Below are positions 1 to 62,367 of a stretch of 64,000 nucleotides of DNA, one piece after another. The stretch is from the IMG/VR virus record IMGVR_UViG_3300046746_000620, positions 1-64,000 of that record, one strand, 5' to 3'. The stretch's first letter is position 1; the number at the start of each line of letters is the position of its first letter. The notes below the pieces were generated by a model. The model worked only from the letters and a program-made list of their open reading frames with translations. It did no database searches and had not been told where the DNA came from. Position numbers and translations under genes: made by a program. The stretch comes from a virus.

Positions 1-1100
1 CCAGTTTCTGTCTCTGTCTCTGTTTCAGTCTGAGTTTGTGTTTCTGTCTCTGTCTCTGTTTCAGTCTGAGTTTCAGTTTCTGTTTCAGTTTGGGTTTCTG
101 TCTCTGTTTCAGTCTGAGTACCAGTTTCTGTTTCTGTCTCTGTTTCAGTCTGAGTCTGGGTCTGTGTTTGAGTTTCAGTCTGAGTTTCAGTTTCTGTTTC
201 GGTAAATGTATTTGTCTGAGTTTGAGTCTCTGTTTCAGTTTGAGTCTCTGTTTCAGTTTGAGTCTCTGTTTCAGTTTGAGTTTCTGTCTCTGTTTGAGTC
301 TGAGTACCAGTTTCTGTCTCTGTCTCTGTTTCAGTCTGAGTCTGGGTCTCTGTTTGAGTTTCAGTCTGAGTTTGTGTTTCTGTCTCTGTCTCTGTTTCAG
401 TCTGAGTTTCAGTTTCTGTTTCGGTAAATGTATTTGTCTGAGTTTGAGTCTCTGTTTCAGTTTGAGTTTCTGTCTCTGTTTCAGTCTGAGTACCAGTTTC
501 TGTCTCTGTCTCTGTTTCAGTCTGAGTCTGGGTCTCTGTTTGAGTTTCAGTCTGAGTTTGTGTTTCTGTCTCTGTCTCTGTTTCAGTCTGAGTTTCAGTT
601 TCTGTTTCGGTAAATGTATTTGTCTGAGTTTGAGTCTCTGTTTCAGTTTGAGTTTCTGTCTCTGTTTCAGTCTGAGTACCAGTTTCTGTCTCTGTCTCTG
701 TTTCAGTCTGAGTTTGTGTTTCTGTCTCTGTCTCTGTTTCAGTCTGAGTTTCAGTTTCTGTTTCAGTTTGGGTTTCTGTCTCTGTTTCAGTCTGAGTACC
801 AGTTTCTGTTTCTGTCTCTGTTTCAGTCTGAGTCTGGGTCTCTGTTTGAGTTTCAGTCTGAGTTTCAGTTTCTGTTTCGGTAAATGTATTTGTCTGAGTT
901 TGAGTCTCTGTTTCAGTCTGAGTACCAGTTTCTGTCTCTGTCTCTGTTTCAGTCTGAGTCTGGGTCTCTGTTTGAGTCTGAGTCTGGGTCTCTGTTTGGG
1001 TCTGAGTACCAGTTTCTGTTTGAGTCTCCGTCTCTGTTTCAGTGAATGTATTTGTCTGGGTTTGAGTCTCTGTTTCTGTTTCTGTTTCTGTTTCAGAAAT
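1..1100 (-). repeat. Degenerate 6-bp (Thr-x) coding repeat
   Basis: The coding strand is an imperfect run of ACN-GAR/CAR hexamers encoding T-E/T-Q. Larger blocks recur: a unit containing the residues NTFTE (plus-strand gtaaatgtatttgtctgag) appears near 205, 425, 610, 880 and 1045, and marks a higher-order repeat of roughly 170-270 bp. The plus strand is made almost entirely of T, G and C. The tract is likely to be variable in length through slippage or recombination. Confidence 0.9.
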
Positions 1101-1505
1101 TGTTGGAGATACTGTCGGGGTTCCATCAGCACAACAACCTAAAGATAGTCTATATATATCTGTAGAACTTGAATGAGAAAATTGAAATTCAGGAATATCA
1201 ACAAATCCTTGCCCTGGTTTTAGAATAATTTTATAAGCTTTTCCGCACTCTAAGGATTTTATTCCAAGGAATGGAATTTGACTTTTAGTAGCTGAACTCG
1301 AATAAGAAGACTCTGAAACTAAATCTTCAAAAGGATGTATAGCATAATAAATTTCTGGATGATTGTGATCGTTGTTATTAGAATCTCCCGCATCAATAGT
1401 TACTAAATCAAAAGGGATACATTTCGCAGCACTTTCTTCAGGACAAGTCCCATACCACCCATAGTAAATTAGGTAATTGGATTGATTTTGATCTAAGCGA
1501 GCCAT
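1..1505 (-). CDS. Thr-repeat fibre-like virion protein (partial, C-terminus off the left edge)
   Basis: The gene starts at the ATG at 1505, one base after the stop of the gene upstream, and stays open to the window edge, giving at least 501 residues. Residues 1 to about 120 form a mixed-composition domain with scattered cysteines. A GCCADG segment at about residue 121 follows, and from about residue 137 the protein is almost pure T-x-T-x (x = E, Q, N, F, G, S). No enzymatic motif is visible. The layout (small globular head, Cys-Cys, long Thr stalk) matches parts of the genes at 1507-4176 and 43002-45809. I infer an extended stalk of a tail fibre or surface appendage. The antisense Ser/Leu/Phe/Cys-rich frames over the repeat are shadows. 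Confidence 0.75.
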   Translation of the reverse strand, partial: MARLDQNQSNYLIYYGWYGTCPEESAAKCIPFDLVTIDAGDSNNNDHNHPEIYYAIHPFEDLVSESSYSSSATKSQIPFLGIKSLECGKAYKIILKPGQGFVDIPEFQFSHSSSTDIYRLSLGCCADGTPTVSPTISETETETETETQTQTNTFTETETETQTETGTQTQTETQTQTQTETQTQTETETETETGTQTETETQTQTNTFTETETETQTETQTETQTQTETETETETGTQTETETETQTETETETQTETETETETQTQTETETETETGTQTETETETQTETETQTQTNTFTETETETQTETETETETQTQTETQTETQTQTETETETETGTQTETETETQTETETQTQTNTFTETETETQTETETETETQTQTETQTETQTQTETETETETGTQTQTETETQTETETQTETETQTETETQTQTNTFTETETETQTETQTQTQTQTETETETETGTQTETETETQTETETETQTETETETETQTQTETETETET

Positions 1506-1506
1506 G

Positions 1507-4176
1507 TTAACTTATTGTTATAGAATAAACACCTCCGTTAAGATTTACGGTTTGACCCTCTAGCATCTTTACCATGTCTTCTACACTGGTGAATTCTGGG
1601 TAATATGTATCTTTAGGTTGGAATGGGGAGTAATATGATTTGAGCATCATACCTTCAACATACAAATGGTTTTCTACCGAAATAACCGTTTCTGCTTGTA
1701 CGAATCTAGGGCCTGAAGAAAAGAAAGAATTCCATTGTCCAGGATCGCTAGTCCATTCTAGTATAAAAGTCGAATCTGGTACAAGATAACGTACATATAA
1801 ACCACCAGCATCTTCTTCAACAGTAAGACCTGATAGTTTTGTTACCATGTCTTCTACACTAGCGAATTCTGAATAATATGTATCTTTAGGTTGGAATGGG
1901 GAATAATATGATTTGAGCATCATACCTTCAACATACAAATGGTTTTCTACCGAAATAACCGTTCCTGCTTGTACGAATCTAGGGCCTGAGGAAAAGAAAG
2001 AATTCCATTGTCCAGGATCGCTAGTCCATTCTAAATAAAACTTTTTCAATCTAGGAGCTGGCGTTTCAGTTTCTGTTTGAGTAAATGTTTCGGTAGTTGT
2101 TGGTGTTGGGATGATGCTGTTTACATTAACTAATATAATTGTGCTCTGATTAGGGCCTGTAAGCTCTCCTATCCAGCATTCTCCTCCATAAGTATATTTT
2201 ATTGAACCATTAGAAACACCAAATGAAAGAGTTACATATCCTGTAAAGGTTGGATTTTGAACAGAGTCTTGAATGAAATAAGATCTATTCGTTGTATCTG
2301 ATACATCTAAATGGTAAAAGCAAAGAGTGCCTCCATTATCAAAACCATTTACATTAAAACCTGTATCCGCCGAAAATTGTGATCCCGTAGTTCTTGCTTG
2401 AATATCCCCAAACCCATCACAGCAATTAGGCTCAGAAGTTTGTGTTTCTGTTTCAGTCCCTGTTTGGGTTAAAGTAAATGAGCCTGTCTCTGTTTGTGTT
2501 TCTGTATCAGTCTGAGTTTGCGTTTCTGTCTCAGTTTGGGTTTGTGTTTCTGTTTCGGTCTGAGTCTGAGTATGAGTTTCTGTTTCAGTCTGAGTCTGAG
2601 TGCCAGTTTCTGTTTCAGTCTCTGTATCAGTCTGAGTTTGCGTTTCTGTCTCAGTTTGGGTTTGTGTTTCTGTTTCGGTCTGAGTGTGAGTATGAGTTTT
2701 TGTTTCAGTCTGAGTCTGAGTGCCAGTTTCTGTTTCAGTCTCTGTAGTCGTCTGAGTTTCTGTCTCTGTCTCAGTCTGGGTTTGCGTTTCTGTCTCAGTT
2801 TGAGTTTGCGTTTCTGTTTCTGTCTCAGTTTGAGTTTGTGTTTCTGTCTCGGTCTGAGTCTGAGTTTGTGTTTCAGTCTGAGTCTGAGTTTCTGTTTCTG
2901 TTTGGGTAAATGTATTTGTCTGAGTTTGAGTATCTGTTTGGGTCTGAGTGCCAGTTTCTGTTTCAGTCTCTGTAGTCGTCTGAGTTTCTGTCCCTGTCTC
3001 AGTCTGAGTTTGCGTTTCTGTCTCAGTTTGGGTTTGTGTTTCTGTTTCAGTCTGAGTCTGAGTTTGTGTTTCTGTATCTGTATGGGTCTGAGTTTCTGTC
3101 TCGGTCTGAGTCTGAGTCTCTGTTTGAGTCTGAGTACCAGTTTCTGTTTCAGTAAATGTGTTTGTCTGAGTTTCTGTCTCGGTTTGAGTTTGCGTTTCTG
3201 TTTCTGTCTCGGTTTGAGTTTGCGTTTCTGTTTCAGTCTGAGTCTGAGTTTGTGTTTCTGTTTCAGTCTGAGTCTGAGTTTCTGTTTCTGTTTGGGTAAA
3301 TGTATTTGTCTGAGTTTGAGTATCTGTTTGGGTCTGAGTGCCAGTTTCTGTCTCTGTTTCTGTTTCGGTCTGAGTCTGAGTTTCTGTATCTGTTTCCGTA
3401 AATGTATTTGTCTGAGTTTGAGTTTCTGTCTCTGTTTGGGTTTGGGTTTCGGTTTGGGTAAAAGAACCTGTTTCAGTTTTTGTTTCTGTTCTTGTATTAG
3501 TAAATGTATTAGTATAAGTTTGGCTGTTTGTCGCAGTTTCGGTTTGGGTATCTGTATTTGTTTTAGTATGAGTTTGAGTCTCTGTTTCTGTATTAGTATC
3601 AGTTATTGTTGAAGTTTGAGTTGTTGTGTAAGACCCTGTTTCGGTTTGAGTTGGTGTTTCAGTTTCTGTTCTGGTTTGAGTTTGCGTGAATGAACCTGTT
3701 TCGGTTTGAGTCTCTGTAAATGAACCTGTTTCGGTTTCAGTTTCTGTATTTGAGGGAGTTTCCGTCGGGTTTGTTTCTGTTATAGTTGGTGATTTAGGTA
3801 TTGAGTCTATTAGGAAATCAGGTTTATATATAGGATTATGGCAATGAGAAACAGTAAAATCACAACTAGAACTATTTACTTGAATTTTTAAAAAATTAAA
3901 ATTAAAAATTTGTTGATAATTTAATGTGTCTGAAGATTTTGAAGAAACCTCAAGGCTATAAATCTTTACCCAAGATTTTAAATTGATATCATTTGATACA
4001 TATATCGATATATCACTAGGAGAATCAGATTTATTATTTAAAAAAAGTGTAAAAGAATGAGTTAAATGCTTAGATATATCATAGTTTATAGACTCCGAAG
4101 AGCCTGAATCAGTAGGAAGCAATGAACCCGAAAATTCATAGCTAACTGATAGTGTTTTATTTAACTCAGACCTCAT
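1507..4176 (-). CDS. Thr-repeat fibre-like protein with duplicated C-terminal domain
   Basis: This 889-residue protein has no recognised enzyme motif. Residues 1-130 form an N-terminal domain rich in Ser and Asp, possibly the virion attachment part. Residues about 130-582 are a T-x-T-x stalk. A SEPNCCDGF segment follows, then a globular domain to about residue 690, a short second Thr linker, and two nearly identical 91-residue domains (about 711-889). Each of these contains EWTSDPGQWNSFF and YYSPFQPKDTYY. The duplication is in frame at DNA level (273-bp offset). Position downstream of the tail genes suggests a tail fibre or host-binding appendage. The terminal repeated domain is the best candidate for the receptor-binding tip, by inference. 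Confidence 0.75.
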   Translation of the reverse strand: MRSELNKTLSVSYEFSGSLLPTDSGSSESINYDISKHLTHSFTLFLNNKSDSPSDISIYVSNDINLKSWVKIYSLEVSSKSSDTLNYQQIFNFNFLKIQVNSSSCDFTVSHCHNPIYKPDFLIDSIPKSPTITETNPTETPSNTETETETGSFTETQTETGSFTQTQTRTETETPTQTETGSYTTTQTSTITDTNTETETQTHTKTNTDTQTETATNSQTYTNTFTNTRTETKTETGSFTQTETQTQTETETQTQTNTFTETDTETQTQTETETETETGTQTQTDTQTQTNTFTQTETETQTQTETETQTQTQTETETQTQTETETETQTQTETETQTNTFTETETGTQTQTETQTQTETETQTHTDTETQTQTQTETETQTQTETETQTQTETGTETQTTTETETETGTQTQTDTQTQTNTFTQTETETQTQTETQTQTQTETETQTQTETETETQTQTETETQTQTETETETQTTTETETETGTQTQTETKTHTHTQTETETQTQTETETQTQTDTETETETGTQTQTETETHTQTQTETETQTQTETETQTQTDTETQTETGSFTLTQTGTETETQTSEPNCCDGFGDIQARTTGSQFSADTGFNVNGFDNGGTLCFYHLDVSDTTNRSYFIQDSVQNPTFTGYVTLSFGVSNGSIKYTYGGECWIGELTGPNQSTIILVNVNSIIPTPTTTETFTQTETETPAPRLKKFYLEWTSDPGQWNSFFSSGPRFVQAGTVISVENHLYVEGMMLKSYYSPFQPKDTYYSEFASVEDMVTKLSGLTVEEDAGGLYVRYLVPDSTFILEWTSDPGQWNSFFSSGPRFVQAETVISVENHLYVEGMMLKSYYSPFQPKDTYYPEFTSVEDMVKMLEGQTVNLNGGVYSITIS
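1571..2033 (-). repeat. 273-bp tandem duplication (copies 1571-1760 and 1844-2033)
   Basis: The 190-bp cores at 1571-1760 and 1844-2033 are offset by exactly 273 bp (91 codons). They differ at only a handful of positions, apparently all transitions. They encode the repeated EWTSDPGQW...YYSPFQPKDTYY domain. The offset is a multiple of three, so the frame is kept. The near-identity indicates a recent duplication or gene conversion. Confidence 0.95.
2430..3790 (-). repeat. Degenerate 6-bp (Thr-x) coding repeat, second tract
   Basis: The coding strand again alternates ACN with GAR, CAR or AAY codons for about 450 codons, with recurring NTFTE and GTQTQ blocks. It resembles the tract at 1-1100 but its higher-order blocks differ. 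Degeneracy rises toward the N-terminal end of the protein (3450-3790), as is usual for older repeats at an array edge. Confidence 0.9.
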
Positions 4177-4187
4177 AATAAACTAAT

Positions 4188-4214
4188 AAAAGTATTTTAC
4201 ACGAAAATACTTTT
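4188..4214 (-). terminator. Rho-independent-type hairpin after the sugar-enzyme genes
   Basis: A perfect 11-bp stem (AAAAGTATTTT, loop ACACG, AAAATACTTTT) lies between the end of the gene at 4252-5184 and the start of the one at 1507-4176. All stem pairs but two are A/T, so the stem is weak. It is symmetric and could act in either direction; on the minus strand it would end the sugar-gene transcript. Confidence 0.6.
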
Positions 4215-4251
4215 AGAAGCCGATTTTATATAAAAAAAGTTACATTTTAGA

Positions 4252-5184
4252 TTACTCTCTAAGGTCTGCTGATGATTTATTACTCAAATACCAGTTTATT
4301 GTTTGCTCAAGACCTTCCTCAAAAGAAATGGGATGAAAGTCTGGGAAAATAATTTTCATTTTTGAGACATCTAACACTTTTCTTTGTACTCCATTTGGTT
4401 TTGATGTATCCCATTTCAAATCTCCTTTGTATTTTATAAATTTAGCAGTTAAATCAGCAAGTTCTTTGATTGATGTCCCAATACCTGTCCCGATGTTTAC
4501 AGGATCTAGATCGTGATCAACATTTACAGACATAGAAATAACCTTGGCAGCATCCTTAACGTGTAAAAATTCTCTAACAGGACTTCCATCACCCCAATTA
4601 GTAATTTCGGGTTCATTTATTTGATCAGAAAACCTTTTTATTAAAGCTGATACTACATGAGCTCGATATTCTTGAAATACATCGTGTTCTCCGTATAAGT
4701 TAGTAAGCACTAGGTGGTTTCCTAATAATCCATATTGTTGATAATAAGATTTTTGAGCTATTAATTGAATTTTTTTTGAAGAGCCGTAGCCGATAACAGA
4801 ATCGTGCATGGGGCCATTCCAAAAATCTTTTTCTTTCATATCTCCTTCGACGTGACCTGGGTAAGCACAGGCAGAACCTACAGCAACAACTTTATTAACA
4901 TCGTTTTTTGCCGCAGCCTCATAAATATTAGCTGTCATTAAAGTGTTATTCCTGAAGAGGTTAGCGGGCTCTTCGACATTAATGTTTAATCCGCCATAAT
5001 ATGCAGCCGAATGAATTATGACTTCTGGCTTATGTTTTTTAATATAATTAAAAGTTGAATTATAATCATAAAGATTAAACTCAGAGCTTCTTGGAGCAAG
5101 GACTTCGAATTTTTTTTCGCACTCGCTAACGATTTGCCTCCCCAGAAAACCTGAACCGCCTGTAACTAATATTTTTTTATACAT
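4252..5184 (-). CDS. GDP-L-fucose synthase-like SDR epimerase/reductase
   Basis: The protein is an extended short-chain dehydrogenase of 310 residues. The NAD(P)-binding glycine motif TGGSGFLG sits at residues 8-15. A GSACAYPG segment (about 105) and YGSSKK (about 133) supply the catalytic Ser and the Tyr-x3-Lys pair. The later LYGEHD and REFLHVKDAA segments are typical of the GDP-fucose synthase (Fcl/GMER) branch, which makes GDP-L-fucose from GDP-4-keto-6-deoxymannose in the cytoplasm. Length fits the family. No GDP-mannose 4,6-dehydratase is seen in the window, so the substrate must come from the host or from outside the window. It overlaps the preceding gene by 8 bp. Confidence 0.8.
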   Translation of the reverse strand: MYKKILVTGGSGFLGRQIVSECEKKFEVLAPRSSEFNLYDYNSTFNYIKKHKPEVIIHSAAYYGGLNINVEEPANLFRNNTLMTANIYEAAAKNDVNKVVAVGSACAYPGHVEGDMKEKDFWNGPMHDSVIGYGSSKKIQLIAQKSYYQQYGLLGNHLVLTNLYGEHDVFQEYRAHVVSALIKRFSDQINEPEITNWGDGSPVREFLHVKDAAKVISMSVNVDHDLDPVNIGTGIGTSIKELADLTAKFIKYKGDLKWDTSKPNGVQRKVLDVSKMKIIFPDFHPISFEEGLEQTINWYLSNKSSADLRE

Positions 5185-6109
5185 TTTTATATTTACTCCT
5201 ACTATCTAAAGCTGGAACAGCTTGAATTAATTCGTTAATACCTTCTTCTATAGTTTTTTTAATATTAAATCCTATATTATTTATTTTCTTATAAGACACT
5301 TCATAATTCCTTTTATCTTCATCTTCTCCAAACTCCGCAAAATGAAGATAGTAATCTACTTTGTCTTTTATCATCAAAGCTATTTCTTCTTTACTAAAGT
5401 TATTAAAATCTCCCCCAACATTATAAGTATTATTCTTCATAATATCATAATTCTCTATAGCATAAACTATACTATCAGCCATATCATCTACATGAATAAA
5501 AGTTCTTTTGAAGCTTTTTTCAAACATAACAAGAGTTTTGTTATTAATAGCCTGATAGACAAAATCATTAATAAGAAGATCTAATCTCATCCTTGGAGAC
5601 AAACCAAAAGCTGTGGCAAAACGATAAGCTACGGCACCATTTTCATTTAAAAAAATATTTTCAGCTTCAGTTTTAGTTGTTCCATATAAACTTATAGGGT
5701 TTAAAGGAGTTTCTTCAGTGCAAATTTCATTTTCAATAACTCCATAGTTAGACCCTGTTGAAGCATATACAGTTCCTTGATCTTTGGATAATAAGGACGA
5801 TATTAATTTAGAAGAGTCTACGTTAACTGTTTTTGCTAAATCTGGATTCTTTCTGCAAGCTGGAAACCCAACAATAGCCGCCAAATGTATAACAAATTCA
5901 AAGTTATGAACTAAGTTTTTCATTAAAGTTTCATCTCTAGCATCTCCTTTGATGAATTTAAACTTTTTATTTTTAAAAAAGGGGATAATTGTATGACCAT
6001 TGTCGTACATCAAATTATCGACAACACAGACCTTAAACCCTTTTTCTAATAATTTGGGAACTAAAACAGAACCCACGTATCCAGCACCTCCAGTAACTAA
6101 AATTTTCAT
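5177..6109 (-). CDS. NAD-dependent nucleotide-sugar epimerase/dehydratase
   Basis: This is an extended SDR protein of 310 residues. TGGAGYVG near residues 6-13 binds the dinucleotide. STGSNYG (about 120) and YGTTK (about 143) carry the catalytic Ser/Thr and Tyr-x3-Lys. FIHVDDMA is a conserved C-terminal SDR segment. The family interconverts or dehydrates NDP-sugars; which sugar cannot be told from sequence. It lies in one operon with the fucose-synthase-like gene downstream and sugar-transfer genes upstream. Confidence 0.8.
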   Translation of the reverse strand: MKILVTGGAGYVGSVLVPKLLEKGFKVCVVDNLMYDNGHTIIPFFKNKKFKFIKGDARDETLMKNLVHNFEFVIHLAAIVGFPACRKNPDLAKTVNVDSSKLISSLLSKDQGTVYASTGSNYGVIENEICTEETPLNPISLYGTTKTEAENIFLNENGAVAYRFATAFGLSPRMRLDLLINDFVYQAINNKTLVMFEKSFKRTFIHVDDMADSIVYAIENYDIMKNNTYNVGGDFNNFSKEEIALMIKDKVDYYLHFAEFGEDEDKRNYEVSYKKINNIGFNIKKTIEEGINELIQAVPALDSRSKYKNV

Positions 6110-6155
6110 AATATGTTTATTATGAATAGTAAATTACTTTTACTAAAAATCTAAA

Positions 6156-6932
6156 CTAATAATTAAAAAAATTACTTTTATAAAGAGGTGAATTTAGTTT
6201 TTCATCTAAATTAGAGCTATGATACTGGTGGTAGAAGTCGAAATTTAACTTTAGACCTAAATTGTAAACAGGGTTATGAGCGCATAAAGAATTTATAAAA
6301 TTGATATCAATGTATTTTTTAAATATTAAATCTTCATTCAAAAAACTTCTTTGATTGATAAGAGATTTATTGAAAATAAATATTCCTCTAGCTGAACCAA
6401 AGAAAGGGCAAATATTATTTCTATAAAAACAATTATAGGCATAGTGAGGTTGATTAATTACAAACTCATTTATGTCGTCACTTAAAACATGTTTTATTGG
6501 ATCTTTCGATTGTAATTCGTCTAAAGATCTAGATTGGGAATAAGCGAGATTAGGTAGCTTGCTCGAAGAAAAAAACCAGTCAAAGAAAGATATTCCAGGA
6601 ATTGTGTCTTGGTCAATTTTTAATATAAAATTAAAAGAGCAGTGATCTATGCAAAAGTTTAATGCATGTGGTATTGAAAAAACTGACTCTTTACAAAATT
6701 TTTTTGAAGGAGTTAATATTTTAATAAAATCTTTTTTTTTGTATAGATTAATTGATTCAATAATAGGAGTTTCTGAGAAGTAGTCACAAACTATAATCTC
6801 TACTCGATTGATTAAATTTAATTTTTCTATAAAAAAAGTAATACAATTTAATGTATTTGTTAATCTTTTAAGCGAAGATCCTTTATAGAAATCATTTCTT
6901 GAGCAAAGAATAATGCTTAATTTTTCGTTCAT
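6156..6932 (-). CDS. GT-A-fold glycosyltransferase (family 2-like)
   Basis: The 258-residue protein begins with a GT2-like strand and loop (LSIILCSRND) and has a metal-binding DxD-like motif, KIDQDTIPG, at about residue 109. This is the usual arrangement of inverting glycosyltransferases that use NDP-sugars. There is no membrane segment. It sits between nucleotide-sugar enzymes and further transferase-like genes, so it probably uses the sugars they make. The acceptor is unknown; virion Thr-rich proteins encoded nearby are one possibility. Confidence 0.65.
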   Translation of the reverse strand: MNEKLSIILCSRNDFYKGSSLKRLTNTLNCITFFIEKLNLINRVEIIVCDYFSETPIIESINLYKKKDFIKILTPSKKFCKESVFSIPHALNFCIDHCSFNFILKIDQDTIPGISFFDWFFSSSKLPNLAYSQSRSLDELQSKDPIKHVLSDDINEFVINQPHYAYNCFYRNNICPFFGSARGIFIFNKSLINQRSFLNEDLIFKKYIDINFINSLCAHNPVYNLGLKLNFDFYHQYHSSNLDEKLNSPLYKSNFFNY

Positions 6933-6934
6933 GA

Positions 6935-7294
6935 TTAAATAAAGTTTGATATATGATCACTACTAAAAGAAAAATAAAAAGAATCTTCATTTAAATAGTA
7001 AGTATTTTTGAAATTAAATGGCAAACTTTTATCACTTTTATAAATTATAACATGATTCAGGAGATTAACAGGTAATTCATAATCTTTAGATGATCTTATA
7101 TTTTTAAAAATTTTTTTTAAAAAAACCTCATGATCAGAACTTAAACTTATTAAATAAAAAATAGAATTATTTAATAGCAAGCTACATTTGTTCATTTGAG
7201 CTACTAAAGTATTAGTTAAATGAATAGGTAATTGAGGTGCATAAATACCCACACAAAATTTATTGTTTTTTTTAATTGAATTATATACGCTCAA
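6935..7294 (-). CDS. Hypothetical protein in the glycosyltransferase cluster
   Basis: A 119-residue protein that I do not recognise. It has alternating hydrophobic strands and no clear motif. It overlaps the upstream gene by 4 bp (ATGA-type) and is 2 bp from the next gene, so it is translated with the transferases. It could be a separate domain of a split glycosyltransferase. Confidence 0.55.
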   Translation of the reverse strand: MSVYNSIKKNNKFCVGIYAPQLPIHLTNTLVAQMNKCSLLLNNSIFYLISLSSDHEVFLKKIFKNIRSSKDYELPVNLLNHVIIYKSDKSLPFNFKNTYYLNEDSFYFSFSSDHISNFI

Positions 7295-7977
7295 GATTTT
7301 TTATGAAGAATTTTTGTATTGGGATATAAACTAATAACCTCATCTAAAGTTTTTTTTGAATCAATAGGGTCGCTTATGTTGACGATAAAGTCTGTATTAA
7401 TAAAATTATTATAATAATCTTTATCATTTTTGCAAGATTCATAAATCGCAACATCAAAACTTAAATAACTTAATCCATGAGAGACTTTTCTAAGTAAAAA
7501 TTTTTCAGATTTATCTAATATTTTTTTTAATTGTTTAGAGTTTTTATAAATAGCAACTCCATTTAAATGCTCTCGATAACTTAAGTTTTTATGATATACA
7601 TTATCGCCTTTATATTTTGATCCTGCTATAATAAAATTATTATTATTTACAAAAATTAAAAAAGTAGAGATCCACCCGTCTATTAACTCAACATCTGTTT
7701 CTAATAGTAGAAAACTTTTGTATTTTATTGGGTAATCAATTAAGTAGTTTAATGATTCAAAGAAAAGAATATTAGGGCCAGATGTTAAACTATAAGGAGT
7801 TATTTCCGTCGGATTAAAAGGGTGAAAACTTTTATCATAAACATCTTCCGAGCTATTTAAATTTAAATTTACAAAATATATATTAAAATTATACTTTAAC
7901 TTTTTTTCTTTTATATATTTCTCAAAGCTTTTGCTTGAAGCATTTACAAAAATAAAAAAATCAAATACATCACGCAA
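7291..7977 (-). CDS. Putative glycosyltransferase
   Basis: The 228-residue protein contains FLLLETDVELIDGW at about residue 92. There ETDVE resembles the DxD nucleotide-sugar site of GT-A enzymes, followed by a GW segment common in that fold. Other conserved blocks are weak. It is the first gene of a three-gene overlapping group (7977 down to 6156), after the ribonucleotide reductase gene. The assignment rests on one motif plus context. Confidence 0.5.
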   Translation of the reverse strand: MRDVFDFFIFVNASSKSFEKYIKEKKLKYNFNIYFVNLNLNSSEDVYDKSFHPFNPTEITPYSLTSGPNILFFESLNYLIDYPIKYKSFLLLETDVELIDGWISTFLIFVNNNNFIIAGSKYKGDNVYHKNLSYREHLNGVAIYKNSKQLKKILDKSEKFLLRKVSHGLSYLSFDVAIYESCKNDKDYYNNFINTDFIVNISDPIDSKKTLDEVISLYPNTKILHKKS

Positions 7978-8097
7978 ATTATTATTTATATTTTTTTTAA
8001 AAAAATTTTCTAAACTTCCATTTTTATACTCTTTTAAAGTGCAAAGTAAAAAAATGCAGTTATATATTTTATTTTTTTTTTATATTTTTTCAATATA

Positions 8098-10551
8098 TTA
8101 CTGGCAGCTTTCACAAGATTCTCCTTTAGCTCTAGCCTCTAGGCTACAAGATTTAGGTTCAGATTTAGATTCACCTGTGGATTTTTCTACTTTACTAGCA
8201 GCTCTATTGCGTAAATAATATGTAGTTTTAAGTCCTAACTGCCAACACTTAAAGTAAATATCATTTAAATATTTTAAGGATGTTGTTTTGTTATAAAGGT
8301 TAAAACTTATAGCTTGATCAACCCACTTTTGACGAACAGAATTGATTTCTATTAATTTTAACATGTCTCTATCAAATGCAGTTTTATACTTATTTTTTAA
8401 ATCTTCTGGAATATTTTCGTTAGTTAGAGATAAATCACCATCAATGCTTTTTATGAATGAAGCTATTTCTGGATTCCAGAGACCTCTATCTTTCATATCA
8501 TTGACAAAATGAGGATTAGTGATGTAGAAATTACCACTTTTATTTTCATAAACAAAAAGAACAGAAAAATTAGGTTCAATACTTTGCTCCACACCATTTA
8601 TATATCCTATGGTTGCGGTTGGAGCTATAGCCATTACATTTGAATTTCTCATACCATGCTTAGAAATATGACTCCTAACTTTTTCCCAATCTTTTAGATT
8701 TTCTGTAGATTTGTTTTTTTCTCCCCTGTATGACATTAAATTATTGAAAGAGTCAATAGGTAGAATATTTTTACTCCACAGTGATCCATTATAACTACTA
8801 TAAGATCCTTTTTCTCTAGCTAAAAGGGAGCTGGCATAAATTGCATGACAGGAATAAAACTCAAAAAGTTTGTCGTTAAAACTCTTAGCTTCATCGCTGT
8901 CAATTTGAATATTCATTTTATGTAAAACATCGTGTATTGACATCATTCCTAGGCCAATTGGTCTATGCTTTAAGTTGCTATTTTCAGCTTCTTTTGTTGG
9001 GTAGAAATTTAGATCAATTACATTATCAAGTATTCTAATAGCTGTATGTATTGTTGATTTTAATTTATTAAAATCGATGCAATAACCAGTTTTGCCATGA
9101 GTTGTTTTTTCTTTTAAATGATTTAATATATTGATAGAACCTAAATTGCAAACAGCTGTTTCTCCTATTTCTGTTTTTTCTCCCTGATTGTATTTTGATG
9201 GTTTTGTGTGTAGAGTAATTTCCGTGCAAAGATTTGAGCTATTGACCGCACCCTTATGTTGATTAGTGTATCGAATATTACAGGGGTCTTTAAATGTATT
9301 CCATGGGTGAGATGTTTCAAAGAGAACTTTAAGCATTTTTTTCCAAAGATCTTTTGCGGGGATTATCCGATAATTTTTAATTAAACCTGCATCTGCCGCT
9401 TTGCATAACTCATCGTATCGAGTGTCAAACTGATCTCCGAAAAGATCATGCAAGGTTTTTCCGTCATCACCTTCTGTATCTTTTGGGTCAAAGAAATACC
9501 AAACATCTTCTTTTTGGACCCTACGCATAAATTCATCAGGAATCCATGCTGCGGTATTCATGTCGTGACAGCGTAAGCGGTCGTCTCCTGTATTTCTCCT
9601 TAAGTTTAAAAAATCTTCAAAATCTAAATGCCATGGCTCTAAATAAGCACATCCAGCACCTGGGCGCTTCCCTCCTTGATTGACAGCAACTAAAAGGTCG
9701 TTGTATATTTTCAACCAAGGAACTAAACCGCTAGAAATACCATTAGTCCCTTCAATATGAGAACCTGTAGAACGAAATGGTGTTACATCAAGACCTAAGC
9801 CTCCAGCATATTTTGATTTGCGAGCTTCTTGCCAAGCACCGTCAAATATCCCATCAATACTATCATCAAAAGTATTTAAGTAGCAGGAACTAAGTTGAGA
9901 GTGAGTGGTTCCGCTATTAAAAAGAGTTGGGGTTGAGGGAGTGTACAAGAATTGACTAAACAAATTGTAAAATTCTATAGCTTTTTCGTTTTTATTTTTT
10001 TCGTTGATTGCTAGTCCCATTGCGACTCGCATCCAAAAACTTTGGGGAGCCTCCATGCATTTTTCATCCACCCTAATAAAATATCTGTCTGTTAAAATCT
10101 GTATACCTAAATATTTAAAATCTAAATCTCTTCTAATTTTAATAGATTCAGCAAGCTTTTGTAAGTCGAAGTTTAGTAATTTTTCATCAAGCCTGTTTTC
10201 TTTTACTAGCTTTTTTGTATTTTGAATGAAACTTTTTCTATATTGTAATTTAAAAGTGTCTGAATCCACACCTTCTTTAAAAACTTCTTTATATAGATTA
10301 TTTAATAATAATCTAGCCGCAGCAAAAGAGTAATTAGGCTCTTTTTCTATTTTTTCTCTAGCTGATAAAATCAAAGCTTGATCGATCTCTTTTGTTGTTA
10401 TTTTGTCAAAAAGCTGTAATTGTGCATCTAGAACTATTTCGCTGGCAGATACATCGGTAATTCCTTCACAAGCTCTTTGCGAGCTTGCATTAATTTTATC
10501 TACATGAAATTTTTCAAGCCTTCCGTTTCTTTTCTTTACTTTTATATTCAT
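8098..10551 (-). CDS. nrdA: Class I ribonucleoside-diphosphate reductase, alpha subunit
   Basis: The 817-residue protein has the full large-subunit plan. An N-terminal ATP-cone spans about residues 1-90. SSCYLN (about 224) and AVCNLGS (about 465) give the substrate-reducing cysteines, and NLCTE (about 440) the N-x-C-x-E active site. PTATIG lies near 643. The radical-transfer pair TYYLR is near 776, and the C-terminal CESCQ is the redox shuttle. It reduces NDPs to dNDPs for phage DNA synthesis and needs a radical-generating beta subunit. No beta subunit or thioredoxin gene is found in the window. A promoter is seen just upstream (10572-10600). Confidence 0.95.
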   Translation of the reverse strand: MNIKVKKRNGRLEKFHVDKINASSQRACEGITDVSASEIVLDAQLQLFDKITTKEIDQALILSAREKIEKEPNYSFAAARLLLNNLYKEVFKEGVDSDTFKLQYRKSFIQNTKKLVKENRLDEKLLNFDLQKLAESIKIRRDLDFKYLGIQILTDRYFIRVDEKCMEAPQSFWMRVAMGLAINEKNKNEKAIEFYNLFSQFLYTPSTPTLFNSGTTHSQLSSCYLNTFDDSIDGIFDGAWQEARKSKYAGGLGLDVTPFRSTGSHIEGTNGISSGLVPWLKIYNDLLVAVNQGGKRPGAGCAYLEPWHLDFEDFLNLRRNTGDDRLRCHDMNTAAWIPDEFMRRVQKEDVWYFFDPKDTEGDDGKTLHDLFGDQFDTRYDELCKAADAGLIKNYRIIPAKDLWKKMLKVLFETSHPWNTFKDPCNIRYTNQHKGAVNSSNLCTEITLHTKPSKYNQGEKTEIGETAVCNLGSINILNHLKEKTTHGKTGYCIDFNKLKSTIHTAIRILDNVIDLNFYPTKEAENSNLKHRPIGLGMMSIHDVLHKMNIQIDSDEAKSFNDKLFEFYSCHAIYASSLLAREKGSYSSYNGSLWSKNILPIDSFNNLMSYRGEKNKSTENLKDWEKVRSHISKHGMRNSNVMAIAPTATIGYINGVEQSIEPNFSVLFVYENKSGNFYITNPHFVNDMKDRGLWNPEIASFIKSIDGDLSLTNENIPEDLKNKYKTAFDRDMLKLIEINSVRQKWVDQAISFNLYNKTTSLKYLNDIYFKCWQLGLKTTYYLRNRAASKVEKSTGESKSEPKSCSLEARAKGESCESCQ

Positions 10552-10571
10552 ATAATTTTAGATATTTTGCA

Positions 10572-10600
10572 ATGATAACACATTACACTAATATAATCAA
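10572..10600 (-). promoter_or_regulatory. Promoter of nrdA
   Basis: On the minus strand TTGATT (10595-10600) and TATCAT (10572-10577) are spaced by exactly 17 bp. The -10 box ends 20 bases before the nrdA ATG, leaving a leader of about 14 bases. It matches the spacing of the other promoters in this window. Confidence 0.6.
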
Positions 10601-10632
10601 GACGAAACAGAAAAAAAGATATTAACAAAAAA

Positions 10633-11493
10633 TTAATTATCAAATACTGCGGACTTAAATTCTCCCCAGTCTAACTTATCTCTGACATTAAGATTTACCT
10701 CCCATGCAGCTTTAAGAACTGTTGGTTGTAGATCATTTTTTTCAAAAGTATCTATCAATGAGTTAATATCTTTAGGGAAGCATGTACCCCCAAAACCTTT
10801 TTGTCCATCATGCCCTGGGACTTGATAATGAGATTGCCCTATTCTTTTATCTGATAAAACTCCGTTTATAATAGGGTTCCAATCTAACCCAAGTTTTTCA
10901 ATCAAGGTATAAATTTCATTAAAGAAACTAACTTTACAAGCAAAAAAACAATTAGCTATATATTTGACCGACTCAGATTCGTCGCTCTTCATTAACATTG
11001 TTTTAATGTTAGGAAAAGCTGATTGTAATAATTTTTCAACAAGATGTCCTGTTCTTTTATTATTAGTAAATCCGACGATATGTCTGTCAGCATTAAGGAA
11101 ATCTTCTTTAGCAAATTTAGCAGTTAAGAATTCTGGACTATGAACAATATTTAGATTTGGATATTTGTCTTGCAGGTCTTTTGTTGTGCCGATTGGAACC
11201 GTAGATTTTATAATTAAAATAGGATTAGACTTCACCTTTTCTGAAACCTCTTTAAGGCAGGAATTTATAATTGATAAATTACATTCGCCACCTCTTAGGG
11301 ATCTCATTGGGGTTGGAACGCAAATAAAAACAAAATCTTGCGAAACAACTTCTTCAAGCGAATTTTTTGATAATTTTTTATTTTTGTCAAAAATTTTTAC
11401 ATTAAATTTTTGGAAACCATTGGCGATAGCGGAGCCAACAAAACCATTGCCGATTACGCCAATGTTTAATTTACTGAGATTGATTTTTTTCAA
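10633..11493 (-). CDS. Short UDP-glucose/GDP-mannose 6-dehydrogenase-family protein
   Basis: The protein has the N-terminal NAD-binding motif GVIGNGFVGSA (about residue 12), VFICVPTPM, and IIKSTVPIGTT. The catalytic cysteine lies in GFGGTCFPKD near residue 234. Family members usually have about 400-450 residues; this one has 286 and stops soon after the catalytic domain, so the C-terminal nucleotide-sugar-binding domain is missing. The reaction would be NDP-sugar to NDP-uronate, but activity of such a short form is uncertain. It overlaps the upstream epimerase gene by 23 bp. Confidence 0.75.
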   Translation of the reverse strand: MKKINLSKLNIGVIGNGFVGSAIANGFQKFNVKIFDKNKKLSKNSLEEVVSQDFVFICVPTPMRSLRGGECNLSIINSCLKEVSEKVKSNPILIIKSTVPIGTTKDLQDKYPNLNIVHSPEFLTAKFAKEDFLNADRHIVGFTNNKRTGHLVEKLLQSAFPNIKTMLMKSDESESVKYIANCFFACKVSFFNEIYTLIEKLGLDWNPIINGVLSDKRIGQSHYQVPGHDGQKGFGGTCFPKDINSLIDTFEKNDLQPTVLKAAWEVNLNVRDKLDWGEFKSAVFDN

Positions 11494-12385
11494 TCCAATC
11501 CTCCAGTTTTTGTTTGGGAATCCAGTTCAATAACTCTCTGGCTTTATTGTTATTAGCTTGAGTTTCTTTAGCTTCTCCAAGTCTAGCTGGAATATGAGTA
11601 AATTCACCCCCTATTAAATCTTTAATTTCATTAACGGAATGATTTAAACCTGTCCCAAGATTTATAAGTTCACCCACAGGCTTTTTGTTGTCGAGATTAG
11701 CTGCTAAAATATTTGCTTTAGCAATATCTTTTACATAAGTGAAATCTCTTCTCTGTGTTCCATCTCCTACAATTGTCATTAGTTCTTTGTTTGATTTTTG
11801 TCTAAGAAAAATTCCTATGACGGGAGCATATTGACCTTTCAGGGGCTGTCTTTCGCCATAGACATTGAAATATCTAAAACAAACTGTTTCTATATTAAAT
11901 AGATTTGTATACATAAAGCACAGATCTTCTCCAGCGGTTTTTGTTACAGAATAAGGATTCAAGCAATCCTTGGGCATATCTTCTCTTTGGGGAGGAGTAT
12001 TTTTTAAACCATAAGCTGCTGATGTAGAGCTGTAAATGACTCTTTTAACATTATTTATTTTTGCAGCCTGTAGTACAGAACAGGTTCCTACAACGTTTGT
12101 TTTAGCTGCTAATATTGGGTTTTCTAAAGTTGGCTGAATGCGAGCTTCCGCTGCAAGGTGGAAAATAACATCAACACCTTTACATAATGGAGAAAAGTGA
12201 TCGAAGTCGCAAACATCAACTTTAAAATTTTTTGTTTCTTTATTCCAGAAGAATTCACTATTGGCATCAGAAGACTCATTGTCGACCACAGTGACTTCAT
12301 TTCCTAAAGATAGTAGTTGATCAACAACATGAGAGCCTATAAAACCAGCTCCTCCAGTGACTAAACATTTTTTATTTTTAATCAT
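11471..12385 (-). CDS. UDP-glucose 4-epimerase-like SDR protein
   Basis: The 304-residue extended SDR enzyme has TGGAGFIG at residues 10-17, HLAAEAR, SSTSAAYG (about 125) and YSVTK (about 147). The C-terminal half has RDFTYVKDIAKA. This pattern is shared by UDP-glucose and UDP-glucuronate 4-epimerases. With the downstream dehydrogenase-like gene it may form a UDP-glucuronate/galacturonate branch. It is the first gene of the leftward unit that starts at the promoter at 12397-12424. Confidence 0.75.
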   Translation of the reverse strand: MIKNKKCLVTGGAGFIGSHVVDQLLSLGNEVTVVDNESSDANSEFFWNKETKNFKVDVCDFDHFSPLCKGVDVIFHLAAEARIQPTLENPILAAKTNVVGTCSVLQAAKINNVKRVIYSSTSAAYGLKNTPPQREDMPKDCLNPYSVTKTAGEDLCFMYTNLFNIETVCFRYFNVYGERQPLKGQYAPVIGIFLRQKSNKELMTIVGDGTQRRDFTYVKDIAKANILAANLDNKKPVGELINLGTGLNHSVNEIKDLIGGEFTHIPARLGEAKETQANNNKARELLNWIPKQKLEDWIEKNQSQ

Positions 12386-14001: not shown

Positions 14002-14451
14002 ATGGCTTTTTATTTAAATCAATTCCATTGCATAGGAAATTTAGTTGCCGATCCTGAAATTAAAAATGCTGGATCTACAAAAGTCTGTAAATTCAGAATT
14101 GCAGTTAATAATCCTCATAATGAATCTGCGTTATTTTTTTATGTGGATGTTTGGGGTAAAGAGGGAGAAAAATGTATGCTTCTCAAGAAAGGAGCTCAAG
14201 TCTTTATATCTAATGCTTCAATTATACCTAAGCAATACCAAAAAGACTGTAACGGAACTCCAGTCTCTTGCACAACATTCACCGTAAATGTGGACGGTTA
14301 TTGCGGTAAGGTTCAATTTGGTCCAAAAACTGAGATCCCAAGCTCCAATAAAATATCAAAAAATAAAACTAATAAAATTAACAACCCAGCAGAAACAAAA
14401 GAAAGCGATGAAGAAGATTATTCCGATTTCGAGCAAGAATTTGAGTTTTAA
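14002..14451 (+). CDS. ssb: Single-stranded DNA-binding protein
   Basis: The 149-residue protein has the SSB OB-fold pattern: an N-terminal FHCIGNLVADPEIK strand pair, then KFRIAVNN, FFYVDVWGKEGE and FTVNVDGYCGKV. A Lys/Asn/Thr-rich linker leads to a very acidic tail ending in aromatic residues (DFEQEFEF), as in bacterial SSBs, where the tail recruits replication proteins. It starts two bases after the sigma-like gene. Its 3' end overlaps that of the convergent gene at 14448-15704. Confidence 0.85.
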   Translation: MAFYLNQFHCIGNLVADPEIKNAGSTKVCKFRIAVNNPHNESALFFYVDVWGKEGEKCMLLKKGAQVFISNASIIPKQYQKDCNGTPVSCTTFTVNVDGYCGKVQFGPKTEIPSSNKISKNKTNKINNPAETKESDEEDYSDFEQEFEF

Positions 14452-15704
14452 TCTTTATTCGAGGTTTTTCTCCAGTCCATAATCTCTTCTATTCTTTGAG
14501 GAAAAACTTTCTTTTTTTTCTCTTTTTTGTTTTCTTTTGAAAGATTTAAAACATCCAATTTATTCTCTGGGTTTTTAATGTCTGTAGTTCCAGCAGTTTC
14601 TTCGTTTATTTTATTCTTTAATTTTTTGTATGTTTTATTGACTCTTTCCTTGCTATTAATAAAAGATATTTGAGCCGCTAAAACTAATAAAATAGCCAAA
14701 GGATCAAACACTAACATAATAATAATTATTATTACACGAACAGCTTGATCGGGAGATAGAGAAACAAATCCAGAATCATTTAAAGCTTCTAGAAAATATT
14801 TCAATGGCCCTATTTCGGTTTCCATTCGCCTAATGGTTTCCCCTAAATTGTTTTTTTCTTTTTTAAGTGAATCTATTCTTTCGAAGCTTGATCTTATATA
14901 TTCATTGCATTCTTCTATTTCTTTTTGTTTTATATCTAAATTATTGTCTTTCAGTCGGATATTTTCTATAAATTGATTTATCCTAGAATACTCTTTGTTA
15001 TAATTTTCTCTATAGATTTTTATATTTTCATTATAAATATTTATTTTATTTTTAATTTCTTGTCTCTGTCCCTCTTGCTTTACTCTTAACTCCTCCAATA
15101 ACTTTTTTTTGTTAGAAAATAATCCGACCTTTTTACTTTCCAACTCTTTTATTTCAATGTCTAAAACTTCTTTAGATTTCTCTAGTCTGTTAATTCTTTC
15201 AATTTCTATCTCAATATCATCTTTTAATTTTTTTGAAAGAGCATCTATTCTTGATTGTTCCCTATCTATCTCTTTTTGCTGAATATCTATTCCCACAACT
15301 TCCTTTTTTTCTAATTTTTCTATTTGATTTTTGTATTGATTTATTGAATTTTGCTCGTATTCAATTTGAACATTTAAGTTATCAATTAATGATAATTCTT
15401 GATTAGCTTGACTTTTGTGTTCTATATGCGATTTACTTAAAAATCCAAATATACCTAAGCTGGTTATGCTCATTAAAACAAAAACAGCAAAACTGAAATA
15501 CAATTTCATTAAAAATTTTGTTTTTGCCCAATTCTTATGCAACCATAACACGGTTACCAACTTACCAACCTCAAGGGCTGCTCCCATTATAATTACCGAA
15601 TATTTAGAGCCTGGAAATATTGTCGATAAACCAAGTATACTAAAATAGCCACCTATAATAGATATAGATAATGCAGATAAAATAGTTAAAAAAAATATTT
15701 TCAT
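14448..15704 (-). CDS. Membrane protein with long coiled coil
   Basis: The 418-residue protein has three hydrophobic segments near the N-terminus (about residues 5-30, 35-55 and 65-90). A long Glu/Lys/Arg-rich coiled coil follows (about 110-290). One or two more membrane segments lie near 325-350 (VRVIIIIIMLVFDPLAILLVL), and the tail is basic. Similar membrane-plus-coil proteins, with a VIIMGAALEVGKLV-type block, occur in large marine phages, where their function is unknown. It is the only minus-strand gene inside the rightward early block, so it has its own control. Confidence 0.7.
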   Translation of the reverse strand: MKIFFLTILSALSISIIGGYFSILGLSTIFPGSKYSVIIMGAALEVGKLVTVLWLHKNWAKTKFLMKLYFSFAVFVLMSITSLGIFGFLSKSHIEHKSQANQELSLIDNLNVQIEYEQNSINQYKNQIEKLEKKEVVGIDIQQKEIDREQSRIDALSKKLKDDIEIEIERINRLEKSKEVLDIEIKELESKKVGLFSNKKKLLEELRVKQEGQRQEIKNKINIYNENIKIYRENYNKEYSRINQFIENIRLKDNNLDIKQKEIEECNEYIRSSFERIDSLKKEKNNLGETIRRMETEIGPLKYFLEALNDSGFVSLSPDQAVRVIIIIIMLVFDPLAILLVLAAQISFINSKERVNKTYKKLKNKINEETAGTTDIKNPENKLDVLNLSKENKKEKKKKVFPQRIEEIMDWRKTSNKD

Positions 15705-23847: not shown

Positions 23848-26800
23848 TTATGTAGTTTGGGTTTCTGTTGATGTTGGGCAGCTCTGTAAATATTCTACAT
23901 ATGCGAAATTTATTTGCTCGTGCTCTGATAGACTGTATATACAGTTTTTAACTATATCATCAAAATGATATCGCTCGTCATTATATTCAGATCGTAAAAA
24001 GCAAGATTGTACCCCAATAACATCATAACAACCCTGCCCGCTACTATCTCCAAATTCATTTTCTGCCCTCTGGTTTATAGTTAAATTTTGACCATCCGCT
24101 GGTATTTCTAATTCAAGCACAGTACTTTGAGTCGCATTTAAACTAGAACAACTTTCAAATATCATAGGACCTGCAAAAAACTCTGTATTTGATAGATCAG
24201 GATGAAAAGAATTATTTTCAGAATTTTGTGAAATTTTTGAATTATGATCATAATTAGAGTCTTTATGATTGTATTCAAATTGACCTAAATTTCTAAAACC
24301 TCCTATGAAATTAGAGTTATTGATAGTCTCTTGAACCAAATCTGCAACAGTTAGATTCCAAAACTTTGGAATATATATTGTATGAAAATCGCATCTTTGA
24401 GCTCCAAGATCAGGAGGAGATGCGCCAGCATCTGATTCAAAAATTAAATAGTTAAAAGCTTGACCTGATCCAGCTTTAACACAATCTTTTACTACATTAT
24501 TTTCAGCCCAACTAGGATCTATAAGGAATGTTGGATCACCCGAAGAAAAGACAGAGCCTCCGTCATCCCAACATTTTTTACCTCCATATATATCGCCATC
24601 AGGGAAGAGTTTTGCAGCAGTATCATTCCAGTTTTCAGGAATATAAACTTCATGGAAAACTCTTGATGTTGTATAAGTATATGTAAAAGTTGGTTGAGTC
24701 CCTCCTTGTGTTGCACTGTAAGTTGGGGTTTCTAATATTACTGTATTTGTTTGAGTTAAAGATGGTGTATCTGTTATTGTTAAAGTTGGTGTTGGTTTTG
24801 GAGTTCCCAACTCTAAGTCAAAGTTCCATTTAAACCCCCCATCTGTTATTGGTGTGAATGCCACCCCTTCTTCTGATAATTGTGTTGTAAAAGAAGATGT
24901 TGGAGTTCTTTCGTGTAAAGATAAACTTAAATCAAATCCAAAATCAGGATCTACCGTATCAGTAGGCACTACACATTCGGAAAGGTCAACTATTTCTCTT
25001 GTATAATTCAATACATCGTTCTGATAATCAAATTCATATATTTTTTCAGCAAGAAATATATTTTCAGACTCAGGGGAATTGCCTTCTAGTAAATTTTTAC
25101 TCAAAAGGATAGCTTCTGCTGCATTTTTAATATTTTTAAGACCTTGACCCTTTTTCCCAGTAACTTGTATGTTTATTGTTCTTGTTTTAGCTGTTTGTAG
25201 AGCTCCTAATCTTTGTAAAAAAGTTGAACAGTTTACAAAAAAAGCTGCACCTTGTTGGGTTGATTCATTTTCAGTTATAGTTAGCTCGAACTTTTTAACC
25301 ACATTTTCTATATCTGAGTTTGGCATAGTATAACCAACTTGATTTGAGAATTGCAGCGAAAATTCAAAACTTCCAGTCAGGTTATCTATTGATACTTGTT
25401 TCTCCACCTCCTTGAAAGTATTACTATAAGACCTTCTTGTGGCTATTTCAGATACTTGACTTGCAGATTGATTCACTACATTCTCTATAGCTTTTTTTGA
25501 ATTATTAATTCTTTCTGCCGTCGTTGAACCATGCCCAATAGATTCACCGTTAATAGTTATTAATTCAAACCCATCTTGTTCCTCTATTGATACATTACTA
25601 TCTAGAATATATTTAAACGATCCAGATTTTTGAAATTTCGGGGAATTTGTATATTTTAATGATATATTTGCAGAATTTGTTCCGTATTGATAATTCACAG
25701 AGGAATACAAAGGCTCCTCAAAAATTTGATTTTCAACTCCAGGAGTTGCGCTAGGGCACTGATAAAAAAATTGTTTTGAATAACTATTTAATTTAGAAGA
25801 TATTCTTGAATTAGAAGAATTTAAAAAAGATTGCGTAAAACTCTTAAGTGAATTATCGCTTTCATCTTTTAAGTTTACTAATAAAGTATCTTCTGTAATT
25901 TCTATAAACCCTTCTTCTGTTACATTAATAGATACATCGCTACGAGTGGAGTACTCTTTATTACTATCCAACTTATCAATTCTTAAATTTCTACTAGAGT
26001 TATATTTATTACTTATATGATCGAATGATTCACTTTTTCCAAAATCATTAAAATTAATAACATTTTTATATTCTCCTTGATATGTGTTTGAGAGTATAGG
26101 GTAATTTATACTAGATGAAAATATATTACTAGCAAATTCTCTAGATTTATTTATAGGTAATTCATTTGTTTTATATAAATATATATTATCAAAAAAAGTA
26201 TTATTATCTGTTGATGCAATTAGTTCAATTTTTACATCCTGATTAGCTACATTATTTATTTCAATATAGTGTTGTCCAGTAAACTCTTTTAAATCTAAAG
26301 TTTCTTGTTGAAATTTAACCTGACAATCGTTATAAGTCTGAGAATCTTGCCCTAAATAATCAAAATATAAAGAGTATCTTCCTGTTGTTAAATTTATAGT
26401 AAAACTTGATTTTTGATTTGCAGAAACTTTAATAGAACCATTTCCTTTTCCATTTAGGTTTTCTAGTGCTCTATCTTGCACTGAAGAGTTTGACCATATA
26501 TTTTTTCTATTTTCCAGTAAAGATTCTCTTTTTTCAAAACTACAGGACACCGAATGCTGAATATCAAGAGAATTAGCTGATTCCGAAAAGCTAAAATTTT
26601 CTGAAAAATCTTTTAAATATTTTAAATCTTCATTTTGAAGACCTAATTGCTGGGCTGTTTTTATATTATTTTTATCGTTAGTTGTAAAATAAATTTCATC
26701 AACACTTCCAGCTTCTATAATTTCTATTGATGCTGTAAAGTTAGCATCTCTAATAAATTCTCCAGATACAGCAAAACTAATAACAGAGCCTTCTCCATGA

Positions 26801-62216: not shown

Positions 62217-62221
62217 AATAA

Positions 62222-62300: not shown

Positions 62301-62367
62301 CGAAAGTCTCGTACAGAAATCATGCCAATTCATGTAATAGAATAATGCAATAAAATAGTTGCCAAAT

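Follow-up and report, generated by a model that had tools for sequence, protein, structure and literature searches.

Neck whiskers and collar fibres, of which T4 fibritin and the lactococcal neck passage structure are examples, are separate proteins that project from the neck of the phage. Decoration of virions with sugars is described for the mycobacteriophages Che8, Corndog and Myrna, whose own glycosyltransferases decorate capsid and tail-tube proteins at the C-termini, according to the accessible parts of two papers (PMC12619734, PMC12363180). In the part of a survey of low-complexity regions that is accessible, the longest such regions are 115 amino acids in 102 phage proteomes, 1110 in bacteria and 960 in five eukaryotes (PMC6821194). 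The subject of this work is a set of genes in a 64,000-base stretch of viral DNA, the window (bases 1-64000 of IMG/VR virus record IMGVR_UViG_3300046746_000620, 74,522 bases, called G000; G and L numbers are labels of records and loci), which encode proteins with hundreds of residues in which threonine alternates with some other amino acid (Thr-X tracts). A second, near-identical record is G001 (IMGVR_UViG_3300046170_000519, 205,857 bases). A literature search, thin in its coverage of subscription papers, found no account of long Thr-repeat phage stalks.

Threonine-repeat tracts of the window

The first-pass annotation had claimed Thr-rich tracts in four genes, and all four are borne out. Three have long Thr-X tracts, and the fourth carries a short linker:

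3-1505, minus strand: Thr-stalk protein A, an N-terminal domain of about 120 amino acids followed by a Thr-X tract, truncated by the end of the record
1507-4176, minus strand: Thr-stalk protein B, 889 amino acids, an N-terminal domain of about 125 amino acids, a tract at residues 124-591 and a C-terminal part
43002-45809, minus strand: neck-region protein with stalk and tip, an N-terminal part of about 175 amino acids found lineage-wide, a Thr-X tract at residues 190-575 and a Cys-rich tip at about 794-935
23848-27051, minus strand: tail-region protein with a Thr-rich linker of 40-51 residues, Thr 35-40%

The tract of stalk A covers residues 119-501 (382 residues, Thr 48%) and contains a single alternating run of 363 amino acids. 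The tract of stalk B (467 residues, Thr 47%) has longest runs of 161, 88 and 75 amino acids, and that of the neck-region protein (385 residues, Thr 47%) has a longest run of 329. The alternation is beyond chance. Stalk A, stalk B and the neck-region protein contain 0, 6 and 1 TT dipeptides against shuffle means of 60.1, 70.8 and 57.2, and the minima over 2000 shuffles are 51, 59 and 46. The filler residues are mainly Glu and Gln, to which the neck-region protein adds Asn, Ser, Asp and Ile; proline occurs only 2, 6 and 4 times in the three tracts. The homologues of the linker protein in G004, G006 and G013 have Thr-rich linkers too.

In G001, stalk A is whole (167326-170160, 944 amino acids) and stalk B, the C-terminal part of which holds a near-duplicated segment, is identical to that of G000 (170162-172831, 889 amino acids). 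Both are presumed to be virion proteins.

Threonine is conserved in the tracts at the level of the protein. The third base of the tract Thr codons varies much as in other phage genes and the first two are kept, as expected for selection on the protein. The Thr codon fractions are ACA.45, ACT.46, ACC.08 and ACG.01 in thrA, and ACT.55, ACA.30 and ACC.15 in the giant tract of G001 described below. Long open reading frames (ORFs) overlap the tracts in the antisense or shifted frames (2-1132, minus; 3-1142, plus; 2494-3612, plus; 44070-45281, plus), because the repeat has no stops in those frames. They were rejected as true genes, since only the Thr frame runs on into conserved end domains.

A stalk and tip on the neck-region gene

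Judged by gene order and homology, the stalk of 43002-45809 is an extension of a conserved gene from the head-to-tail region. Relatives were collected from IMG/VR virus contigs by a protein search with one marker, and the best 80 of 300 stretches were compared:

46303-47523, minus strand: presumed major capsid protein, assigned by position and conservation, without a family match; the marker

A small neck-region gene, the second after the presumed capsid gene, is present in 74 of these 80 loci and complete in 71 (it is missing from L019, L021, L063, L064, L072 and L074). In 66 relatives the protein is complete, free of any tract and ends at 151-255 amino acids. Stalk and tip extend the protein in eight loci, and these are precisely the ones whose capsid identity is highest (77-100%); five are complete and three are cut by a contig end. 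They represent about four species and not eight independent cases. The fillers differ from locus to locus, with TETQTDTSTN in this phage, TPTLTHTSTST in L007, TTTVTETATITP in L009 and TATETATVTE in L010. Despite these differences, Thr is dense at the same place of the gene across the species.

The tract of the neck-region protein is followed by a Cys-rich domain of about 140 amino acids. A model of this tip made from four neck proteins, with the giant gene of G001 left out, matches the C-terminal end of the giant gene at 33.5 bits (E 1.8e-8), compared with a best score of 4.6 bits for 200 shuffles of that end. The tip is thus common to the neck protein and the giant tract, and the plan of stalk plus tip occurs in two genes. 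The length of the neck stalk changes by whole units: the proteins of G000 and G001 differ by a single exact insertion of 50 residues (31 versus 36 ten-residue units), while stalk B is unchanged between the two records as the neck stalk differs by five whole units.

AlphaFold2, given 23 neck proteins as input, predicted the first approximately 172 residues as helical, with a block predicted local distance difference test score (pLDDT) of 75-88 over most of them. The tract was unstructured (pLDDT under about 35), and the overall pLDDT was 42. The gene lies between capsid and tail genes, is small and has a helical model, as a connector or adaptor gene would. In L012-L014, which have no tract and are next in identity, the adaptor C-terminus is a short tail rich in Gln/Glu/Ser or Thr/Pro. 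Such tails are possible seeds of the stalk.

Tract load of the genome and the giant tract

G000 and G001 share three blocks at 99.7, 99.3 and 99.8% identity that jointly span all of G000. Positions 37202 and 37203 of G000 correspond to bases 205857 and 1 of G001. G000 thus joins one end of G001 to the other, which makes the genome circular or terminally redundant, with a size near 206 kb. The other records compared below for tracts and sugar genes are partial. Eight genes of G001 bear tracts, four of them outside the record of the window. Apart from stalks A and B these are:

G001, 985 amino acids: neck-region gene
G001 117852-126800: Thr-X gene, 2,982 amino acids
G001 130263-142409: Thr-X gene, 4,048 amino acids, 12 tracts
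G001, about 145.0-164.7 kb (L121, L122): giant Thr-X gene
G001 165713-167239: Thr-X gene, 508 amino acids
G001 192503-195706: linker gene, homologue of 23848-27051 of the window

Strict Thr-X runs of at least 16 residues occupy 25,122 bases or 12.2% of G001, and every one of them lies on the coding strand; the base-reversed sequence contains 18 amino acids of such runs with both strands counted. The giant block, nearly pure Thr-Glu/Gln repeat over about 19 kb, contributes 19,119 of these bases. Its five in-frame pieces amount to 6,401 residues, 3,183 of them Thr, and the longest unbroken tract has 1,873 residues. The repeat periods are 24, 30 and 48 bases and their multiples. The six frame changes of the block may be genuine breaks or mistakes of sequencing or assembly. 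A search with the gene beside the giant tract matched only G001, and the length of the tract rests on one assembly because no second record of the region was found. If extended, a stalk of thousands of Thr-X residues would exceed a micrometre.

The presumed capsid protein has no tblastn match in a collection of 50,697 phage records, nor have two of the stalk proteins (low-complexity filter on). The terminase is the only clear family match among the structural-type labels; capsid, tail-tube and tape-measure proteins were assigned by position, size and conservation. The presumed tape-measure protein (27058-37551, 3,497 amino acids) contains nine scattered GF(I/V)PNF-like motifs. The tail sheath family PF04984 was found in none of six lineage records, one of them circularly complete. 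Membership in the moraphages, as far as the accessible part of PMC12619734 describes them, was rejected on this absence of a sheath, sequence relation being outside the comparison. A search for the host with the RNR of the window gave two cellular matches (73%), both on short contigs of metagenome-assembled genomes (MAGs), one of Woesebacteria and one of Halobacteriovorax (L299 and L300). The neighbouring genes on both contigs are phage-like, and in L300 transferase-like genes adjoin the RNR. These contigs are probably phage DNA.

Sugar, transferase and sulfotransferase genes

The two stalk genes stand at the end of a run of sugar genes on the minus strand. From 12385 the order is epimerase, dehydrogenase-like gene, RNR, putative transferase, small gene, GT-2-like gene, epimerase, GDP-fucose-synthase-like gene, stalk B and stalk A:

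11471-12385, minus strand: NAD-dependent sugar epimerase, Pfam Epimerase above cut-off; 59-61% identical in G031 and G029
10633-11493, minus strand: UDP-glucose/GDP-mannose dehydrogenase-like protein with only the N-terminal and central domains of UDPG_MGDP_dh; homologues in G029 and G031 at 72% identity
8098-10551: RNR, inside the run of sugar genes
7291-7977, minus strand: putative transferase without a family match; its homologues in G001 and G004 are fusions, to which it corresponds in their N-terminal half
6935-7294, minus strand: small protein, function unassigned, between two transferase genes
6156-6932, minus strand: glycosyltransferase, GT-2-like, without a family match of its own; the G004 homologue passes the Glycos_transf_2 cut-off
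5177-6109, minus strand: NAD-dependent sugar epimerase/dehydratase, Pfam Epimerase above cut-off
4252-5184, minus strand: GDP-L-fucose-synthase-like NAD epimerase/reductase, best NCBIfam match 222 bits (cut-off 500)

The gaps within the run down to the stalk genes are at most 120 bases, and no terminator-like site is listed on its minus strand, all eleven sites found being on the plus strand. The labels of the first-pass annotation fared unevenly. The epimerases are supported by Pfam, the glycosyltransferase at 6156-6932 through its G004 homologue (a further search found relatives only in G001), and 7291-7977 has no family to support it. The fucose-synthase-like and dehydrogenase-like proteins stay below their cut-offs. 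The latter scores 178.8 bits against the NCBIfam nucleotide sugar dehydrogenase (cut-off 189.8) over positions 72-298 of 413, and as the match stops at 298 the C-terminal part is missing. The gene at 50537-51211, labelled sulfotransferase-like, has no profile or sequence match in Pfam, NCBIfam, PHROGs, the PDB sequences or the phage collection, its relatives being three same-species records, and that label is unsupported.

Glycan- and sulfate-type genes are nevertheless present in the genome. A second region of G001 contains Glycos_transf_2 (67229, 75775), Glyco_transf_11 (72716) and Fringe-like (81921) genes, and Sulfotransfer_2 genes lie at 55505, 79122 and 80678 of the same region. Both Glycos_transf_2 genes are above the cut-off, whereas coding for a glycosyltransferase in the window is recognised only via the homologue. 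Sulfotransfer_2 was found in 10 of 19 lineage records (G001, G004, G013, G019, G023-G026, G029 and G031), with up to six matches per record, and in none of 14 control genomes. At G001 76530-78323 and G004 871-3756 a transferase-looking part is joined to one or two further parts, whose HIPK..G and RDPF motifs we take to be sulfotransferase-like; Pfam gave no match for them. A model of the fusion from three sequences had a pLDDT of 41.

Interpretation of the stalks

The explanation that we favour, tentatively and with somewhat less than even confidence, is that the phage makes long surface stalks of Thr-X repeats and encodes its own tools to decorate them. A stalk would consist of an anchoring domain, which in 43002-45809 would be the small neck-region protein, hundreds to thousands of Thr-X residues and a Cys-rich tip. 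Every second residue would be Thr and the others mainly Glu, Gln, Asn, Ser and Asp; the length would change by whole repeat units, and selection would retain the alternate Thr while the fillers drift. The likeliest reason for this retention may be O-glycosylation by phage enzymes, possibly together with sulfation. The result would be a mucin-like brush, hydrated and of negative charge, which either holds the tips out from the particle so that they are first to touch the host or serves the particle as a shield. Glycosylation of the stalks is plausible, and is the likeliest reading because the Thr residues are conserved beside glycan genes; we infer it, as we do the presence of the stalks on the virion, their sulfation and their function. 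A more specific version, in which the phage makes a sulfated mucin-like brush with one stalk of thousands of residues and a length tuned by gain and loss of repeat units, is doubtful.

The first-pass annotation had proposed such mucin-like self-glycosylation. Its tracts proved to be long, conserved at the protein level and in one case attached to a conserved gene of the head-to-tail region, and sugar and glycosyltransferase-type genes do lie upstream on the same strand; its sulfotransferase at 50537 found no support. It had also suggested that related phages be examined for tracts and enzymes together, and here the records divide. G001 has both. In G029, a record of 194 kb with a capsid identity of about 57%, at least five proteins bear Thr/Ser-rich tracts. 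They include a paralogue of the presumed tail-tube protein (E 3.3e-71), in which the tract is C-terminal, and the homologue of window 14448-15704 (E 3.1e-74). The matches of G029 to enzyme families number six for epimerase, five for Glycos_transf_2 and six for Sulfotransfer_2. The Thr/Ser/Pro-rich tracts of G029 (L143-L152) lie at 35578-37497, 61831-63174, 65947-67752, 105067-105663, 127681-130107 and 160916-162856 and are mostly C-terminal.

Several results weigh against the favoured explanation. G031, a partial record of 115 kb, carries the sugar cluster, with five matches to epimerases and four to sulfotransferases, and no Thr tract was found in it at the threshold used; G020 and G025 show no Thr tract either; the 78 kb of G004 include a tract and no epimerase. 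Among unrelated viral contigs, Glycos_transf_2 was above the cut-off in 10 of 28 contigs with Thr-X tracts and in 5 of 31 random ones, a difference that is not significant (Fisher p 0.13; size-adjusted p 0.30); at E 0.001 or better the counts were 10/28 and 7/31. The cases were contigs of at least 30 kb with a Thr-X run of at least 40 and a metagenome-type name, hand-picked among 80 listed of 120 scan loci. At least two fitting contigs (L180, L193) were left out, and runs in very short ORFs were excluded, yet L170 with an ORF of 132 amino acids was kept. The controls, also of at least 30 kb and with metagenome-type names, came from 160 listed of 240 loci found with two random patterns of 14-15 bases. 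Co-occurrence of sugar genes and stalks is therefore mixed, neither shown nor excluded. No known oligosaccharyltransferase or Thr-specific initiating enzyme turned up, no family-level search having been made for them, and classic mucin and PT-box linkers differ from the Glu/Gln-filled, Pro-poor tracts of this phage. As to the anchor, fold and PDB-sequence searches with the N-terminal domain gave no connector match (the fold model was weak, pLDDT 42), the fold search giving nothing at E 0.001 or better and, as its best viral match, an unrelated capsid protein at E 7.6e-3. A PHROG scan of 23 of the 74 neck proteins returned only matches to tract composition. Because these searches named no connector, the name "neck" is based on gene order, together with the size of the protein and its predicted helices.

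A rival explanation is that the stalks are real but bare. They would be charged, extended spacers that carry the tips, and the sugar and sulfotransferase genes would serve, say, change of the host envelope or hypermodification of phage DNA. We regard this as quite possible. The sugar cluster predates the tracts and is found more widely: identity to G029 and G031 is 59-82% for the RNR, dehydrogenase and epimerase, and, besides the sulfotransferases already counted, Epimerase is found in 14 and Glycos_transf_2 above cut-off in 10 of the 19 lineage records. The cluster without a tract in G031 and the non-significant contig comparison point the same way. Bare stalks leave unexplained, however, why Thr is kept at alternate positions while the fillers change freely, and why the stalk genes follow the sugar genes on one strand.

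Glycosylation of the stalks by enzymes of the host, with the phage genes unneeded, draws on the same tract evidence and on the fact that action of the phage enzymes on Thr is itself presumptive. It appears unlikely; the only cellular RNR matches were on the two MAG contigs that resemble phage DNA. Still less probable is a sugar-free rigid rod of beta or ice-binding-like type. A strict two-residue alternation would place Thr on one face of a strand, but the tracts were unstructured in AlphaFold2 (weak evidence for repeats), the fillers change freely, and the repeat periods include none of the 11-15 residues of ice-binding proteins. An origin of the tracts in DNA-level repetition, noise or faulty assembly is hardly credible and for the window largely refuted: repeats do break assemblies (G000, L005, L006 and L008 end within tracts) and the giant tract has its frame changes in a single record, but the window tracts run in frame and uninterrupted from one conserved end to the other, and the corresponding gene of other species has such tracts too, with different DNA.

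Comparison with known systems

If the favoured explanation holds, glycosylation of phage virions would reach beyond short glycosylated tails on structural proteins and include very long stalks dedicated to accepting sugars, and mucins would have a viral parallel; addition of a simple repeat would be shown to turn a neck protein into an appendage, and a testable role would be at hand for the many proteins with Thr-X tracts in records of viral metagenomes. Such tracts are common in unrelated IMG/VR contigs (L160-L279), where at least 104 of 120 scan loci have a run of at least 24 residues in an ORF. They are mostly of the TPTN type, with a longest run of 476 residues among the matches listed; Thr occupies every second residue there too, but the filler is mostly Pro instead of mostly Glu/Gln. 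As for length, the tracts of 382-467 amino acids in the window and 1,873 unbroken in G001 compare with the phage maximum given in the accessible part of PMC6821194.

With mucin-like domains the tracts share long tandem repeats dense in Thr/Ser, and lack the Pro-rich proline-threonine-serine (PTS) composition. They resemble the MSCRAMM adhesins ClfA and ClfB in having a long, anchored stalk of simple repeats that presents a binding domain; the match of stalk B to ClfB (69 bits over the repeat, cut-off 999) is one of composition, and homology is not claimed. The mycobacteriophages, as the accessible parts of the papers cited above describe them, likewise encode glycosyltransferases, and decoration of structural proteins is demonstrated there and presumed here; this phage differs in its far longer Thr-X stalks, its unrelated lineage and its additional sulfotransferases. 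Like the neck whiskers, the stalk of 43002-45809 would be an appendage projecting from the neck, but it is a Thr-X stalk grafted on a lineage-wide neck-region protein and not a coiled coil.

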